Shown here: in pieces, positions 583 to 18,399 of the stretch
Layout of the letters: every line of letters starts with the position of its first letter
Numbering within the stretch: the first letter of the stretch is position 1
Virus record (IMG/VR): IMGVR_UViG_3300030060_000971
Span: 10,388-33,808 of that record
Length of the DNA stretch: 23,421 bases
From: a virus
Direction: 5' to 3' (one strand)
Notes under the pieces: model-generated
What the model saw: only the letters and a program-made list of their open reading frames with translations
What the model was told of the DNA's origin: nothing
Database searches by the model: none
Position numbers and translations under genes: made by a program

Positions 583-636
583 GTCCGTTCATCCCGCAAG
601 GGACGCATGACAACCTAGCATGGAACGGGGCTAGGG
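583..636 (+). promoter_or_regulatory. Downstream-peptide-type (glutamine) riboswitch candidate
   Basis: Seven bases after the psbA stop is a compact three-way junction with a pseudoknot. P1 pairs CCGTTC (585-590) with GAACGG (623-628). P2 is TCCC-GCAA-GGGA (592-603), a GNRA-capped hairpin. P3 pairs CATG (606-609) with CATG (619-622). The P3 loop segment CCTAG (614-618) can pair with CTAGG (631-635) to form the pseudoknot. This order, the CGTTCATCCC...GGGAC core and the very short gene just downstream match the Downstream-peptide RNA motif, which together with the glnA motif is an established L-glutamine-binding class in cyanobacteria and marine phages. Recognition is from memory of the consensus; a covariance-model search would settle it. 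Which way it switches is not visible. Confidence 0.82.
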
Positions 637-641
637 TATAT

Positions 642-645
642 GGAG
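642..645 (+). promoter_or_regulatory. Shine-Dalgarno of the downstream peptide
   Basis: GGAG lies six bases before ATG 652, near-ideal spacing, and decides in favour of that start over the in-frame ATG at 640, which overlaps the SD. It abuts GCTAGC (645-650), whose CTAG can pair with CTAG at 615-618 or 631-634 in the riboswitch, so its accessibility may depend on the RNA fold. Confidence 0.75.
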
Positions 646-651
646 CTAGCA

Positions 652-705
652 ATGAAAGTTACTTTCGTATATCGTGGCGTTACATACACCAGAGTAATCG
701 GTTAA
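652..705 (+). CDS. 17-residue 'downstream peptide' under riboswitch control
   Basis: The product is MKVTFVYRGVTYTRVIG. A well-spaced SD and the upstream riboswitch-like element support expression; very short genes (about 17-100 codons) are the defining downstream neighbour of this RNA class. The YRGVTY segment resembles the short YRG-Y motif of small cyanobacterial proteins of the DUF4278 type, but the peptide is too short for a firm family call. Function unknown. It could act on a host target as a small regulator, or translation of the short frame could itself be the control step for the capsid gene downstream. No signal peptide or membrane segment is apparent. Confidence 0.72.
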   Translation: MKVTFVYRGVTYTRVIG

Positions 706-9376: not shown

Positions 9377-12300
9377 CCGATTCCTACGGATTAAGTGATG
9401 AAAACATTGATTTAGCCGCTGAACGTGTACAAGACTATTTAAAAGAAATAGACGAAAGAGATGCTGCAAGAAAAGCAGCTCAAGAACAAGCTATAGCAGG
9501 CGAACAACAGGCATTAGCTCAACAAGAAGATCCCAGAAACTCGGAAACATGGGGAGCTAAAGCTTTTATAAAAGAGGGTCAGTCCATCCTATCCGGTGGT
9601 TTACAAGATACTGCATCCTCTATTGCCACCTTTCCTGAGCGTACAGCAGATGCACTATCAGGAGAAATGCAAAGACAGAGGGAAGAAACTGGTACATACA
9701 AACCAGATTGGACACCCTTTGACGCATACGATAACCCTATCGAAACAAAGACATGGTGGGGTAAACAACTACGAGGTCTAGTGCACTTTGGATCTCTGGC
9801 AGCTGGCACAGTGCTAGCAGCTAAAGGCGCAGCAGCCACAGGTATAATATCTATACCAGCTGGTTTGACTGCTATTACAACCAATACACTAGCTAGAGGT
9901 GCAGCTATTGGTGCTGTGTCTGACCTTGTATCTAAAGAGTCAGACGAGCAAAACGCATTAGGTGCATTACGTGATAGATATGGTTGGGCTGATACACCGT
10001 TAGCAACAAAAGATACTGACTCTCCTGTTATGATGAAAGTCAAAAACATTGTAGAGGGTATGGGCTTTGGTTTATTCTTTGACGGACTAGCCTATACACT
10101 TAAGAAGGGTAGTCAACCTGTCATCGAACAGATTGTCAAACGTAACAAAAGTATAAAAGATCAAACTGTAGAAGCTGGTATAGCACAGTTGCGTAGAGGA
10201 GAAGCTGAGTTTAGAGCTGACAAAAACGCACCTATATCTGATGCACACCAAGGGGCACACCCATCAGAGGTAGAGCCACAGGTAGCTCGTGAACAGCTAT
10301 CAAGGACTCGTAAGGAGTGGGGTCAGGAAGAAGGAGCAACAGGTTCCGTAACCAGACCGCTTGAGCGTGAGCGTATAGCACAAGAAGGAGCAACAGATGA
10401 CGCTACAGTCGAGCGTATTATGCGTGGACTGATGAGTAATGATAAGTTTGCTAAAGAACTAGAAGCTGCAAAAGGCAACAGACAAACTTTAGTAAATACA
10501 TATAGAGAATCTATCGAAGCACACCAACGAATCACACAGGGTAGAAACGCTGCTGATATGTCAGCTAGTGAGTATTTAAAAGACTTACTTGAAGCACGAC
10601 CTGATATAGTTGATGGCGAAGAAATTTGGACATCTAAGAATGTAGTTGTAGCTGATCTTGTTCTAGGTTCTTTGATGAAACAATTACGAGATACAGGTAT
10701 TGCTGCTCGTGAAATATCTGACTTAGTAGATATAAACGATATAGATGGGCCAGCTAAACAAATAGTTGACACAATGCTAACAGCTCTATATCAAACTAAA
10801 AAAGCTAGATTTGTAAAGTCTGACTCTTTTAGAAACTTAGCAGCTGGTAGGCAAAGAAAGGTAGCTATAGATGATGCTGTTAAACAATCAGTAGCAGATT
10901 CTAAAGAGTCTATCATGTCAATACTTAAGATTACAAAAGATAATCAGGATGAAGACTTGATGAACGCCATGATAGAAGCGTTCTCAATTATGGATGATGT
11001 AAATACACTCGAAGACTTTGATAACTGGGCTAGAACCGTTATTAAAGGTGGTAAACTTAACGCTAATGATATTGACCGTACAGGAGCCCTTATAAGAGAG
11101 CTAGAAGGTGTTATGACCAATAGTGTCCTAAGCGGCCCTAAAACCCCTGTAAGAGCGATTATGGGTACATCTGCGGCTACATTCTTAAGACCGTTATCTA
11201 CAGCTCTAGGTGCTGCTATACGTTACCCGTTTGATGGTGACGCATCTACACTACGAGCTAGTCTAGCATCCATCAACGGTATGATAGAAGCTATACCAGA
11301 GTCCTTTACATTATTTAGAACTAAACTAAATGCTTATTGGAAAGGTGATCTAGCTACAATCAAGACTAGATTCTCTGAGTTTAGTCGTGGCGATCAAAAC
11401 TGGGAGCTTATACGTAGATGGGCAGAAGATAGTGGTAGAGCTACAGCTGGTGATACAGCTGCATTTCGTATTGCTAACATGGCACGTAAGATGAATGACT
11501 CTAACTTCCTGACATACTCTACAAAGATTATGGCAGCGACTGACGACGCATTTGCATACATACTTGGCCGTGCAAAGATGCGTGAGAAAGCTATGCGTAG
11601 AGTTTTGGAACTACAAGGTAACGGTATACAGACACCTAAAATTAACAAGAAGTTAATGAAGGCATACGAAGATGACTTTTATGCACAGGTCTTTAATGCT
11701 GATGGTAGTATAACAGACGAAGCTACTGCATTTGCACGTAAAGAAGTTACACTTACACAAGAGCTTACAGGATTTGCAAAAGGTCTAAACGATGTATTTA
11801 CATCCACACCTTTAGCCAAACCTTTCTTTTTGTTTGCTAGAACTGGTGTAAATGGTCTTGCATTGACAGGTAAGTATACACCCGGTTTTAACTTCTTAGT
11901 CAAGGAGTTCAACGAGATAGCACTGGCTACAGATGCTAACTTAGATATGTTAGCAAAGTATGGTATTACAACTGTTGACGAGCTAGCTAATGCTAAGGCT
12001 TTACAAACAGGCCGATTGGCAATAGGCTCTGCTGTAGTATTTATGGCTACACAGGCATGGATGCGTGGTGATCTAAACGGTAACGGCCCTCTTGACAGAT
12101 CCAAAAGACAGATGTGGATAGATGGTAAATGGGAACCAAGGACAATCAAGCTAGGTGCTGTACGTGTCGGTTATGATAACTTTGAACCATTCAACCTTAT
12201 TATGTCTACAATCGCTGACGTAGGTGATGCAAGTGAGCTTATGGGTGAAGAGTGGACAGAATCAGAACTACAAAAGATTTCTTTGGTTGTAGCACAGGCT

Positions 12301-13062: not shown

Positions 13063-16000
13063 ATGGCAACAACATTCGTAGAATACACTGGGGATGGTAA
13101 TGCGACTAAGCAGTTTACCTTTCCTTCATATCAATCTTCTGATGTCAAAGTTCGTGTAGATGGTGTACTTAAAACAGCAAGTACACACTACAATATTACT
13201 AGCTACACTACTACAGGTGGCGGTAATGTAGTCTTTACATCAGGTAACATACCATCCAGTCCAGCTAACATACGCATATACCGTGACACTAACGTAGACG
13301 TAGCTAAGGCTACATATACAGCAGGGTCATCAGTAAAAGCAGCTGACTTAAATAATAACAACACCCAGCTTTTATACAGAGCACAAGAAGAGCAAGTACC
13401 TAATCTTATACATTCGTATGATATAGATGCTGAAGCTATCGAAACAAGTAATATAAAAGCAGACGCTATAACTAACGCTAAAATAGCAGATGACCAGATA
13501 GATTCTGAACATTATGTTGATGGCAGTATAGATACACAACACATTGCTGACTCACAAATTACATCTGCTAAAATAGCTGATGGCACTATAGTAAACGCTG
13601 ATATTAACGCATCAGCTGCTATTGCTGGTACTAAAATATCTCCTGACTTTGGATCTCAAAATATAGTAACTACAGGCACTCTAAGCACAGGATCTTTTTC
13701 AACAAGTGGCACAGTTGATGGTAGAGATATAGCGGCAGACGGTACTAAGCTAGATACCATAGAAACAAATGCTACAGCTGACCAAACAGCATCACAAATA
13801 AAAACACTATTACAGTCAGATAAAATAACTAATTCTGAAATAGCAGCAGGTGCTTTAGATGGTAGATATTTTACTGAAACAGAGCTTACTAATGGTGCTC
13901 TTGATGGTAGATACTTTACTGAAACAGAGTCAGACGCTAGATACTTTAACATAAGTTCTGGTGAGACTATTAAAGATGGTGATACATTTCCTGACAACGA
14001 TACTACGATTGCTACAACCGCAGCTATCAATGATAGAATAATTGACCTAGTTGATGAAGTTGGTGGTTTCGATATTATACAAAGCGAGCAGCACTTTCCT
14101 AATACAAACCCGCAAGGTGCTACAGGTCAATCAGCTGTACTAAGTATCAAAGCGGCCTCAACTAATCTAACTCCTAGTGGTACAACTGTAACCATAACTA
14201 ATGGTAACTTAGCTGACAATGCTAATATTACTATAACTGGCGTTACTTCTACCATACCTACTGGCTTTGGATTCTTAGTAGAATCTACAAGCACACTACA
14301 TACATATACGTTTCACAGATTAGTACCAAAAGCCACAGAGGTTACAACTGTAGCTGGTAATATAACTAACATTAATGCTGTTGCAAACAATGCAAGTAAT
14401 ATTAACTCAGCTGTATCCAACGCATCTAACATAAATACAACAGCTAGTAATATAGCTAACGTCAACAATGTTGGTACAAACGTAGCAAAAGTAAACAGTG
14501 TTGCTGCCGTTTTAGGTGGTACGCAGACTTTTACTGTAACTGTATCAGGCGGTGTATTTTATATAGATGGTCAATCTAAACCAGCCTTGACTTTAGCAAG
14601 AGGTTTTACATATACCTTTAACCAAGCTGATAGTAGCAATAGTGGGCACCCCCTTGCATTTAGAGATAGTAGTGATAATGCTTATACAACAGGTGTAACA
14701 GTTAACGGAACAGCTGGTAGCTCAGGTGCTACTGTAGTATTTGCAGTACCATCAAATGCACCAAGTTCACTTAAGTATTACTGTACTGTACATGGTAACG
14801 GCATGGGTAACACCATAACAGTTACTGACGATAATATAGGAACAGTTGCTGGATCTATAGCAAACGTTAATACTACAGCGGGGTCTATATCTAATGTCAA
14901 TACAGTCGCTGGTGCTATAACTAATGTAAACACAACTGCAAGTAATATTGCAAACGTTAACAACTTTGCTGCTACATATCAGATAGCTTCTTCTGCACCT
15001 TCAACAGACGGTGCTGGCAATGCACTAGCTGCTGGTGACTTGTACTTTGATACAACTGCTAACGAACTAAGAGTACACAATGGATCTACATTCCAAGGTG
15101 GTGTAACAGCTACTGGTAATTTAGCTGGTCTAGGTGCTAACACATTTACTGGAAACCAGACAATAACAGGTGATTTAACTGTTACAGGTGGTGATGTAAC
15201 TATTCAAGGTACAGAACCAAAGTTACATTTAACTGATACTAATAATGATGATGATTTTCTTATTTACAACAATAACGGAGTCTTAAAATTTTATGACGCC
15301 ACAAATGGGGCGGACAGAATGTGGATAAATTCTGCTGGACAAGTTAATGTAAACGGCAATTTAACAGTAGGAGGAACAGTTGACGGTGTAGATATAGCTG
15401 CATTTAAAACATCATTTGATAATTTAAGCACAGATATTGTTAATGACACTTCACCTCAATTAGGAGCAGACTTAGACACAAACGGTTTTGAGATTGCTTT
15501 AGACTCTAACAAAGCTATTACGTTTGGAGGAACTAACCATGGAAACATTGAATATAAAAGTGGTCAGTTTGAAATAACTAATAACACAGGTGATATATTA
15601 ATAGACAATAATTATGTTGGTGGAGATGTTAAAATCTATACTAATACTGACTTTGAAGTTTATGTAAACGATGGTGAAGAAGCTATTGTTGCAAAACAGA
15701 ACGGAGCTGTAGAGCTTTATCACAACGATGTTAAAAAGTTTGAGACAACAAGCGGTGGTGTAACAGTAACAGGTACAGTCGCAGCCACTTCTTACACAGG
15801 TGACGGTTCAAACCTTACTGGTATAGCAACGGGCGTAACAAGTGATGGATCAAATAACACTCTAGCTGGTACAAATGCTGGTGATTCCATTACTTCTGGT
15901 ACAAATAATACTGCAATTGGTAAAGATGCCTTAACAGCAAACACAACTGGTGGTTTTAATGTAGCTATTGGATCAACAGCTTTAGATGCAAACACTACAG

Positions 16001-18399
16001 CAGATGCGAATGTTGCTGTTGGTAATGCAGCATTAACTGAGAATACAACTGGTCACTCAAACGTAGCTGTAGGAGCTAATGCTTTAGATGCAAATACTAC
16101 TGCTAATAACAATACAGCCGTAGGTGCTGCTGCATTAGGAGCAAACACAACTGGAACAGCAAACGTAGCTGTAGGTACTTTCGCTTTAGATGCTAGTACT
16201 ACAGCAAATGACAATGTAGCTGTTGGTTATAGTGCTATGACCTCTAATACTACAGGAGTGCAAAACACAGGTTTAGGTAAAAATGCGTTATTTAGTAATA
16301 CAACCGCAAATAATAATACTGCTGTTGGTTATAATGCGCTAGTTTATAACACAACTGGAGCTCAAAACACATCAGTAGGTACAAATTCTTCTGATGCAAT
16401 TACTACTGGACTTGAAAACACAGCACTTGGTTATGCTACTTTAGGATCAACTACAACAGGCGGTTATAACGTAGCAGTAGGTTCTAGAGCTTTAGACGCT
16501 AATACAACAGCAAGCAATAACGTAGCAGTAGGATATGATGCTTTAGGTGCTAACACAACAGGTTATCTAAACTGTGCCATAGGTACAAGTGCTTTATCAT
16601 ATAACACAACTGGTAATACTAATGCTGCTTTTGGTAATGCTACGTTAGCTCGAAATACTACAGGTGGTTCTAACACTGCTGTAGGTTACGGAGCGATGTT
16701 TGAAACTACAACAGGTAGTCAAAACATATCAATTGGAACTTATGCACTATACGACAACACTACAGGCAGTAGTCTTACTGCTGTGGGTGAAGCAGCTTTA
16801 AGAAAAAATACAACTGCTAGTGATAATACTGCTGTTGGTCGTCGAGCTTTGTTTGAAACTACAACTGGAAATCATAACACTGCTGTAGGGGTTCAAGCTT
16901 TATATGCTAACGTAGATGGAGAATATAATGTAGCTGTAGGTAATTATGCTTTAGATGCAAATACTTCAGCAGATAGTAATGTAGCCGTTGGTTATTATTC
17001 TTTAACAAAAAATACAACTGGTGGAGCCAACATAGCTATTGGAAGAAATGCTTTACAGGAAAATACAACTGCTAGTGACAACATAGGTATCGGTCTTCAA
17101 GCATTACAAAATAACACGACTGGTGATAAAAACACAGCAATAGGTAGAGATGCTTTAGGATCTAATACAACTGGATATCATAGTACAGCAGTAGGATATC
17201 AAGCTTTAGACGCTAATACAGAAGGATATACAAACGATGCCTTTGGTTCTGGTGCTTTAGGTTCAAACACGACTGGTGATAATAACGTCGCAGTTGGATG
17301 TGGTGCTATGGCAGCCTGCACTACAGGAGGTTTTAATATTGCTATTGGTAGAAATTCTATGCCAGCAATGACTACTGCTAATGACAATATAGCTATGGGT
17401 TATCACTCACTCAAGGAGACTACTACAGGTCAACAGAATCTTGCTATTGGTAATGGTTCTGGATATTCTATCACGACTGGAAACTATAACGTAGCTATAG
17501 GTTATAATTGTTTATCAAATAATACCACAGTATCTGGTCAAACAGCACTAGGTCAAAACGCTCTGCAAGATAATACAAGTGGATTTTATAACACTGCTAT
17601 AGGTTATCGAGCTTTAGCGGACAATACTACTGGATATTACAATACGGCAGTAGGTTATGACTGTTTACAAGCTGCTACAACTGGTACTCATAATGTTGCT
17701 ATGGGCCAAGGAGCAGGGCGTAATATTACTACTGGAACTGGAAGTGTATATTTAGGACAAACCGCAGCTGGAAGTGCAACAACTGCTCATTCTAATGTTG
17801 TAATTGGAGGTTCAGCTGGTTTTGATATAACAACAGGTAATAATCTAGTAGCAATCGGTCATGCAGCAGGTTATAACGCTGGTAATGATATAGTAACTGG
17901 ATCGAAGGGAATATATATCGGTGCTTTCAGTATGGCAGGAGCTACGGACGCTGACTACGAGATTGTTCTGGGATATAACATTCAAGGTAAAGGCTCTAAT
18001 ACAGGCTTTATCTATCCCGGTGGTGGTGGTGTTTACCAAGGAAATAACAGTTCAAGTTGGTCAACCACTTCTGATAGAAGAATAAAGAAAAATATTGTTA
18101 CTAATAATTCTGGTTTAGACATCTTAGAAAAAATACAAGTTAAAAACTTTGAATATAAGACTAAAGCAGAAATTGAAAATGACTCACCTGAGCTAAAAGA
18201 TGTAAGTGGCTGTGCTGTTGTAGAGAAAAAAGGAACACAATTAGGAGTCATAGCTCAAGAGATTGAAGAATTTTTACCAGAAGTTGTAAAAACAGAAACA
18301 TCTGGAGTTAAATCCGTTGATACTGATAATCTTACTTGGTATCTTATCAACGCAGTAAAAGAATTATCCGCAAAAATTACAGCCTTGGAGGGCAAATAA
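13063..18399 (+). CDS. Multidomain tail fibre with cupredoxin-like insert, 39 x 17-residue repeats and S74 chaperone
   Basis: This 1778-residue fibre probably contacts the host surface. Residues 1-110 match the T7 gp17 tail-attachment domain (RIYRDTNVDVAKATYTAGSS, ADLNNNNTQLLYRAQEEQ). Then come Ile/Asp-rich stalk repeats (IADGTIVNADI), a duplicated LDGRYFTETE unit (263-289), decapeptide repeats 431-480 and 596-635, and between them a cupredoxin-like domain with potential copper ligands H529, C574, H577 and M581. Residues 640-940 contain stalk segments common in cyanophage fibres (VTATSYTGDGSNLTGI-like). Residues 943-1605 are 39 exact 17-residue repeats, consensus NTTGxxNVAVGxxALxx, resembling YadA/LbR-type beta-rolls. 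The C-terminus (from TSDRRIKKNI) is an S74 intramolecular chaperone, with predicted self-cleavage before Ser1670 after trimerisation. The fibre starts directly after the gp16 stop. Confidence 0.95.
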   Translation: MATTFVEYTGDGNATKQFTFPSYQSSDVKVRVDGVLKTASTHYNITSYTTTGGGNVVFTSGNIPSSPANIRIYRDTNVDVAKATYTAGSSVKAADLNNNNTQLLYRAQEEQVPNLIHSYDIDAEAIETSNIKADAITNAKIADDQIDSEHYVDGSIDTQHIADSQITSAKIADGTIVNADINASAAIAGTKISPDFGSQNIVTTGTLSTGSFSTSGTVDGRDIAADGTKLDTIETNATADQTASQIKTLLQSDKITNSEIAAGALDGRYFTETELTNGALDGRYFTETESDARYFNISSGETIKDGDTFPDNDTTIATTAAINDRIIDLVDEVGGFDIIQSEQHFPNTNPQGATGQSAVLSIKAASTNLTPSGTTVTITNGNLADNANITITGVTSTIPTGFGFLVESTSTLHTYTFHRLVPKATEVTTVAGNITNINAVANNASNINSAVSNASNINTTASNIANVNNVGTNVAKVNSVAAVLGGTQTFTVTVSGGVFYIDGQSKPALTLARGFTYTFNQADSSNSGHPLAFRDSSDNAYTTGVTVNGTAGSSGATVVFAVPSNAPSSLKYYCTVHGNGMGNTITVTDDNIGTVAGSIANVNTTAGSISNVNTVAGAITNVNTTASNIANVNNFAATYQIASSAPSTDGAGNALAAGDLYFDTTANELRVHNGSTFQGGVTATGNLAGLGANTFTGNQTITGDLTVTGGDVTIQGTEPKLHLTDTNNDDDFLIYNNNGVLKFYDATNGADRMWINSAGQVNVNGNLTVGGTVDGVDIAAFKTSFDNLSTDIVNDTSPQLGADLDTNGFEIALDSNKAITFGGTNHGNIEYKSGQFEITNNTGDILIDNNYVGGDVKIYTNTDFEVYVNDGEEAIVAKQNGAVELYHNDVKKFETTSGGVTVTGTVAATSYTGDGSNLTGIATGVTSDGSNNTLAGTNAGDSITSGTNNTAIGKDALTANTTGGFNVAIGSTALDANTTADANVAVGNAALTENTTGHSNVAVGANALDANTTANNNTAVGAAALGANTTGTANVAVGTFALDASTTANDNVAVGYSAMTSNTTGVQNTGLGKNALFSNTTANNNTAVGYNALVYNTTGAQNTSVGTNSSDAITTGLENTALGYATLGSTTTGGYNVAVGSRALDANTTASNNVAVGYDALGANTTGYLNCAIGTSALSYNTTGNTNAAFGNATLARNTTGGSNTAVGYGAMFETTTGSQNISIGTYALYDNTTGSSLTAVGEAALRKNTTASDNTAVGRRALFETTTGNHNTAVGVQALYANVDGEYNVAVGNYALDANTSADSNVAVGYYSLTKNTTGGANIAIGRNALQENTTASDNIGIGLQALQNNTTGDKNTAIGRDALGSNTTGYHSTAVGYQALDANTEGYTNDAFGSGALGSNTTGDNNVAVGCGAMAACTTGGFNIAIGRNSMPAMTTANDNIAMGYHSLKETTTGQQNLAIGNGSGYSITTGNYNVAIGYNCLSNNTTVSGQTALGQNALQDNTSGFYNTAIGYRALADNTTGYYNTAVGYDCLQAATTGTHNVAMGQGAGRNITTGTGSVYLGQTAAGSATTAHSNVVIGGSAGFDITTGNNLVAIGHAAGYNAGNDIVTGSKGIYIGAFSMAGATDADYEIVLGYNIQGKGSNTGFIYPGGGGVYQGNNSSSWSTTSDRRIKKNIVTNNSGLDILEKIQVKNFEYKTKAEIENDSPELKDVSGCAVVEKKGTQLGVIAQEIEEFLPEVVKTETSGVKSVDTDNLTWYLINAVKELSAKITALEGK
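13849..13929 (+). repeat. 45-nt tandem duplication in the fibre stalk
   Basis: Two copies of a 36-nt unit encoding GALDGRYFTETE (13849-13884 and 13894-13929) are separated by nine bases encoding LTN, period 45 nt. A degenerate third copy, DARYFNIS, follows. LDGRYxTETE units are common in cyanophage fibres. The copies differ only at synonymous positions, so the duplication is not brand-new but is conserved at protein level. Confidence 0.85.
14353..14967 (+). repeat. Decapeptide repeat array split by the cupredoxin-like domain
   Basis: Five 30-nt units (14353-14502, consensus AxNIxNVNTx) lie before the inserted domain and four more (14848-14967) after it. Units at both ends are nearly identical at protein level (TASNIANVNN occurs in each flank), which indicates that one repeat array was interrupted, or that the insert was framed by duplicated repeats. 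The units probably form a trimeric coiled or beta-helical stalk. Confidence 0.8.
15889..17877 (+). repeat. 39 tandem 51-nt units in the tail fibre
   Basis: Hand alignment gives 39 consecutive 17-codon units with no insertion or deletion: 39 x 51 = 1989 bases, exactly the interval from 15889 to 17877. Invariant or nearly invariant positions are T2-T3, G4 or A4, N7, A9, G11 and often A14-L15. Nucleotide identity between units is modest, so the array is old and held at protein level. The units fit a solenoid (left-handed beta-roll type) with one turn per repeat. Confidence 0.95.
18387..18392 (+). promoter_or_regulatory. Strong Shine-Dalgarno of the gene after the fibre
   Basis: GGAGGG lies seven bases before ATG 18400, inside the last codons of the fibre. 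Most other starts in the window lack a recognisable SD, so this site stands out and suggests high independent translation of the 83-residue product. Confidence 0.75.

Follow-up and report, generated by a model that had tools for sequence, protein, structure and literature searches.

A Glutamine-II (Downstream-peptide) riboswitch aptamer, followed directly by a 17-codon gene, is situated between psbA and the major capsid protein gene of a genome fragment from an oceanic cyanobacterial virus. The arrangement is best explained as a predicted translational switch that glutamine turns on and that controls a micropeptide with a single DUF4278 repeat, a reading that we consider likely. Covariance-model and conservation analyses of the sequence confirm that the phage aptamer is real and conserved, and that it places a known riboswitch class in surroundings new for it. 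A second structured leader RNA, termed E2, precedes the capsid gene and is more novel than the riboswitch observation. The window, that is, the whole stretch of DNA analysed, comprises 23,421 nucleotides (positions 10,388 to 33,808 of IMG/VR record IMGVR_UViG_3300030060_000971). The features on which the main finding depends are as follows.

1-576, + strand: 3' part of psbA (photosystem II D1), its start outside the window; from ORF translation and gene order in related phages
583-635, + strand: Glutamine-II (Downstream-peptide) riboswitch aptamer; RF01704, 47.8 bits
642-645, + strand: Shine-Dalgarno (SD) sequence GGAG, 6 nt upstream of the peptide start codon ATG 652; from the sequence
652-705, + strand: 17-codon gene encoding MKVTFVYRGVTYTRVIG, related to host DUF4278 proteins but with one repeat; from the ORF
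858-2048, + strand: major capsid protein gene; from tblastn with cyanopodovirus capsid proteins

The placement of the element between psbA, which ends at 576, and the capsid gene, as given in an earlier note on this DNA, is upheld. The capsid ORF is open from 768, and 858 is the first in-frame ATG consistent with the relatives. Elsewhere in the window, positions 13063-18399 hold a 1778-residue tail-region ORF with many NTAVGxxAL-type repeats, judged by eye to be probably a tail fibre.

The Rfam cmscan of the whole window returned a single match over the gathering score, the Glutamine-II model RF01704 at 583-635 of the + strand, with 47.8 bits against a gathering score of 33 (E 5.9e-9). This bears out the class and the coordinates proposed in the earlier note, which had named a search with the Downstream-peptide model as a check. 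The three-way junction proposed with them does not hold; that fold belongs to the Glutamine-I (glnA) class, whose model (RF01739) scores 16.5 bits in the window against a cut-off of 35, and the architecture of the class found here is an H-type pseudoknot with coaxial helices. With the helices numbered as in the Glutamine-II crystal structure (PMC6698751), PK is formed by 586-590/623-627 together with C606:G628, P1 by 592-595/600-603 closed by a GCAA loop, and P2 by 614-619/630-635. The pairing 585-590/623-628, formerly called P1, is retained as the PK helix, except that G628 pairs with C606 and not with C585. Nucleotides for ligand contact and essential pairing were mapped onto the window from the same crystal structure, and all are kept: C1, G2, G18, C19, C39, G40, G41 and A33:G42 correspond to C586, G587, G605, C606, C626, G627, G628 and A620:G629, respectively. 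A candidate switch helix, CUAGC 615-619 with GCUAG 645-649, was specific to the window and absent from relatives, and was dropped.

Matches to RF01704 over the cut-off were observed in 17 of 24 cyanopodovirus records and in 0 of 14 control genomes. Among the 24 records the aptamer is absent in Syn5, P60, S-CBP2, S-CBP42, DSL-LC07 and 7B11-B. S-SBP1 carries a decayed aptamer (19.6 bits; 2003-2036 of its analysed region) with an intact YRG peptide, and glutamine control thus appears to be dispensable there. The aptamer and the YRG peptide go together: both are present in S-CBP1, S-CBP4 and SS120-1, the last of which has no adjacent psbA, and the capsid regions of the aptamer-less Syn5, P60, S-CBP2, S-CBP42 and 7B11-B showed no intact YRG peptide. 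A DNA search recovered positions 581-800 at 80-81% identity in P-SSP7, P-SSP2, P-SSP3 and P-GSP1. In the regions inspected, one of them from an unannotated record, no RNA feature is annotated at the aptamer locus except the tRNA-Gly of NATL1A-7.

A pattern search of IMG/VR, in which the pseudoknot strands are fixed and P2 is left free, provided at least 120 loci. Among the matches listed, the order psbA, aptamer, E2 is found in 73 of 120 loci; it continues to the capsid gene in 72, with no capsid gene seen in the one more. The shorter order aptamer, E2, capsid gene is present in 89 of the 120, again among the matches listed, and many other loci have lost their neighbourhood at contig ends. P2 pairing, which is independent of the search pattern, scores 17.9 against 11.1 ± 0.3 for shuffled strands across 94 distinct non-host leaders, a value reached by none of 500 strand shuffles, and P2 covaries through 55 different helices. 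Since the shuffling ignores relatedness, the margin and the 55 different helices weigh more than the number of leaders. The paired positions are thus conserved in related phages at the same locus, as the earlier proposal presupposed.

This covariation, together with the retained ligand-site residues and the selection on the peptide described below, makes it extremely improbable that the element is a host riboswitch which travelled with psbA and has lost its function, even though S-SBP1 has a decayed copy and both genes can derive from hosts. Two individual loci deserve mention. The S-CBP1 aptamer (from 986 on in its analysed region) has a P1 arm far longer than in other phages, and contig PABE01000131.1, from a metagenome-assembled genome titled Porticoccaceae, carries the aptamer and the E2 core and is therefore probably a misbinned cyanophage. 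A review describes the Glutamine-II type as restricted to marine picocyanobacteria (PMC6316151). The literature mentions glutamine riboswitches in T4-like cyanophages and a methylophage; no report of a Glutamine-II element in cyanopodoviruses was found in the mostly open-access literature searched.

The peptide gene runs from ATG 652 to the stop codon at 703-705, and an alternative in-frame ATG at 640 would extend it to 21 codons. Both this ORF and its SD had been noted previously and are confirmed. A YRG-type motif is present in the downstream ORF of 232 distinct leaders, because the motif was required when choosing starts. The ORFs fall into short (12-23 residues), long (26-51 residues) and host-like (54 residues or more, mostly 55-58, with about three repeats) classes; the phage peptides vary from 12 to 51 residues and keep YRGxxY. 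By length, the 79-residue phage ORF of S-RIP2 belongs to the host-like class. Across 57 short peptides, pN/pS is 0.41 for the 12-codon core and Y, R, G and Y are invariant, which indicates purifying selection on the short peptide.

YRG repeats also occur in the host peptides that follow this aptamer. YRGxxY corresponds to the final repeat of the DUF4278 protein that the host riboswitch precedes; this repeat, ELNYRGVNYTK, resembles the phage peptide. A Prochlorococcus peptide matches DUF4278 (PF14105) with 40.3 bits against a cut-off of 25.3, the end of this query not being drawn from any one locus, and the 33- and 38-residue phage peptides score about 15 bits, below the same cut-off. The minimum length for the Pfam scan was 20 residues, more than the 17 of the peptide in the window, which by similarity would also fall below the cut-off. 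It is not counted as a family member, and its sequence suggests that it may work like a single DUF4278 repeat. The earlier note had suggested that the peptide could be the effector, as small proteins in cyanobacterial nitrogen control are; sequence supports its kinship with a small, nitrogen-regulated host protein. DUF4278 constitutes the N-terminal moiety of the glutamine synthetase inactivating factor IF17, where it is reportedly dispensable for glutamine synthetase inhibition but promotes stability (PMC6316151); a role of the phage peptide as a direct inhibitor is therefore not implied. PirA was also considered as a relative; it is reported absent from marine picocyanobacteria (PMC8092223), and the DUF4278/IF17 connection was followed instead.

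The spacing of the elements points to the peptide gene as the target of the aptamer. The distance from P2 to the peptide SD is 3-6 nt in 81 of 87 short-peptide leaders, in contrast to the distances from the aptamer to the capsid leader (148 to 1358 nt) and to psbA (-7 to 1815 nt) among the matches listed. In P-SSP10-type phages, annotated genes separate the aptamer from the capsid gene. The constant P2-SD spacing and the variability of the other distances suggest that the partner of the aptamer is the peptide, and neither psbA nor the capsid gene. This bears on the alternative in which the capsid gene (or psbA) is under direct riboswitch control through read-through or transcript end formation, so that host nitrogen status sets capsid output and the peptide is incidental. 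The psbA, aptamer, E2 order in 73 of the 120 loci among the matches listed would agree with such control, but the variable distance to E2 and the capsid gene, the genes intervening in P-SSP10-type phages, the purifying selection on a peptide that is always adjacent to the aptamer, and the retention of E2 and the capsid gene in aptamer-less phages such as 7B11-B make this alternative quite improbable. Direct control of the capsid gene by the riboswitch is unlikely, and the tuning of read-through to that gene, which the earlier note had offered as an option, is disfavoured by the same distances and intervening genes.

The preferred reading, a glutamine-activated translational switch for the micropeptide, would operate as follows. 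The Glutamine-II class is reported to be an ON switch (PMC6698751; PMC6316151). When L-glutamine is plentiful, the pseudoknot would close around the ligand and turn expression on, as the literature holds for the host element and as analogy suggests for the phage. The P2 strand ends 6 nt before the peptide SD, so the effect is likely to be on ribosome access. Folding predictions suggest that in host leaders the SD is held by the 5' strand of P2 and freed on aptamer folding, and that in phage leaders its main pairing partner would be the opening codons of the peptide gene itself. The corresponding hairpin in the window is given below.

636-672, + strand: predicted hairpin pairing the SD region 636-645 with peptide codons 663-672; from the minimum free energy (MFE) fold

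In 79 phage leaders the SD has an unpaired probability of 0.22 against 0.43 for synonymous recodings. Closing the aptamer in predicted folds makes the SD more accessible in 8 of 11 host leaders and in 30 of 87 short phage leaders, with the SD paired mainly to the P2 5' strand in the former and mainly to coding sequence in the latter. The SD of the window is paired with coding sequence whether the aptamer is open or closed (0.04 vs 0.04, in a nearest-neighbour model that omits the pseudoknot). The direction of control there consequently rests on the class of the aptamer rather than on folding. The product would be a one-repeat version of a DUF4278 protein that the host encodes behind the same riboswitch; during infection it most likely replaces the host protein or disturbs its action. 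On this reading, psbA and the capsid gene would be neighbours rather than direct targets.

The second leader RNA follows the peptide gene and is preceded by a compact tRNA-like fold.

691-739, + strand: compact tRNA-like fold; from predicted folds and helix score against shuffles in 84 relatives
740-797, + strand: second structured leader RNA (E2), preceding the capsid gene; from parser-tested pairing

E2 consists of PA (743-749/767-773), PB (751-754/759-762, UACG loop), PC (774-776/781-783) and PD (784-787/794-797, GAUAGA loop). PC pairs CGU with ACG in 3 bp around the loop CUAG at 777-780; a fourth pair C777:G780, which would leave a two-base loop, is not claimed. Because a MAFFT alignment misplaces the variable-length arms, pairing was evaluated by a parser that requires PB pairing and leaves PA free, and that split all 135 distinct E2 cores into PA, PB, PC and PD. 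PA strand pairing in these 135 cores scores 4.87 against 3.84 ± 0.09 shuffled, a value reached in 0 of 2000 shuffles. The helices of E2 covary; PD occurs as GUGG/CCAC, GUAGG/CCUAC, GUGUG/CACAC and GUAG/CUAC, as GUCUG/CAGAC in S-CBP4 and as GUCG/CGAC in DSL-LC07. PA and PC were at first read as competing helices; the layout adopted instead, in which they abut, is the analyst's choice of pairing.

The distance from E2 to the capsid match downstream is 45-183 nt in 251 cases, and E2 occupies the same place in P-SSP7, P-SSP3, P-GSP1, S-RIP2, 7B11-B, S-CBP1 and many IMG/VR loci. No Rfam family matches E2. A phage promoter was considered as its identity; no second close copy of the 3' motif was found in the window or in six records searched with a pattern that fixed one loop length and recovered the capsid-leader copy itself only for P-GSP1. 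We regard the E2 fold as very probably real, and E2 as a candidate for a new regulatory element in this abundant group of marine phages.

The tRNA-like fold, a weaker reading than E2 itself, comprises a weak acceptor-like helix (691-694/735-738), a hairpin (697-700/707-710) and a T-arm (715-719/727-731) with the T-loop TGCAAGT. It overlaps the last codons of the peptide gene, and the loop of the hairpin holds the stop codon. The acceptor-like helix scores 13.0 in 84 relatives against 10.2 ± 0.2 shuffled (0 of 300), and the T-arm is located 8-9 nt from UUGG in 86 of 86 leaders; in the window itself the helix has only 4 bp and is missing from the MFE fold. The element before E2 is either the T-arm with the acceptor-like helix (86 leaders in a T-loop search) or another hairpin (103 leaders). 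This alternative hairpin has the loop CACCTCAGAGTCGGA and takes the place of the T-arm in 103 of 191 distinct leaders. The tRNA-like fold is also present in P-SSP7, S-SBP1 and two further loci, the P-SSP7 copy folding with a z of -4.6, and in NATL1A-7 an annotated true tRNA-Gly (1910-1980 of the analysed region) takes its place directly before E2. Neither the tRNA covariance model (RF00005) nor ARAGORN gives a match at 691-739 in the window. A permuted tRNA or tmRNA was rejected, as no consistent downstream acceptor strand exists and ARAGORN finds nothing in the window.

E2, with the tRNA-like fold or its substitute hairpin, might act through tRNA-processing enzymes to define where the capsid message begins. 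In T-arm types, glutamine-dependent peptide translation into the tRNA-like fold might also link host nitrogen status to capsid mRNA processing. This proposal as a whole is doubtful, and the processing role and the coupling to peptide translation are both guesses. A related alternative to the micropeptide switch holds that ribosomes translating the peptide in a glutamine-dependent manner run across the 5' strand of the tRNA-like fold (691-739) and alter capsid-leader processing or folding, the signal being the translation of the peptide and not its product. T-arm type leaders do have the peptide's last codons and stop codon inside the fold, but many relatives have a plain hairpin instead or a peptide far upstream of E2, and the YRGxxY core is conserved for its residues, so that the alternative is improbable.

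The aptamer and peptide occupy a shared place in most of the psbA-bearing podoviruses surveyed, and the phages have apparently kept a host nitrogen sensor together with a cut-down copy of the protein under its control. The pair offers a small, testable handle on the role of DUF4278 in Prochlorococcus and on the reading of host nitrogen status by phages. Products of the Downstream-peptide class reportedly span 17 to 100 residues (Weinberg et al. 2010); the phage peptides lie at the short end of that range, and some marine sequences there may be phage.

Several known systems invite comparison. Plant mitochondrial t-elements are tRNA-like processing signals. They share with the predicted phage fold a T-arm and an acceptor-like helix at the border of two messages; the phage fold differs in preceding a capsid leader, and the likeness is a resemblance only. 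The Glutamine-I (glnA) riboswitch RF01739 has the same ligand and a similar conserved core, and is known from T4-like cyanophages and from a pelagiphage; its architecture differs from that of the phage Glutamine-II aptamer. Cyanophage CP12 is a host small regulatory protein adopted by cyanophages (PMC7760959). The phage peptide would resemble it as a small host regulatory protein taken over by phage, whereas CP12 acts on the Calvin cycle and is not known to be under a riboswitch. With DUF4278 (PF14105) the peptide shares the YRGxxY core, and a Prochlorococcus member of that family lies behind the same riboswitch; in contrast to DUF4278/IF17, it has 17 residues and is without the part that inhibits glutamine synthetase. 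Relative to host Glutamine-II systems, the peptide holds one YRG repeat where host products hold about three, and in predicted folds it is the coding sequence, not the P2 5' strand, that masks the SD. The closest counterpart is the PMM1846 leader of Prochlorococcus MED4 (RF01704), which has the same aptamer fold and ligand-site nucleotides, a short ORF directly downstream and a YRG product, whereas the phage copy resides in a podovirus between psbA and the capsid gene.
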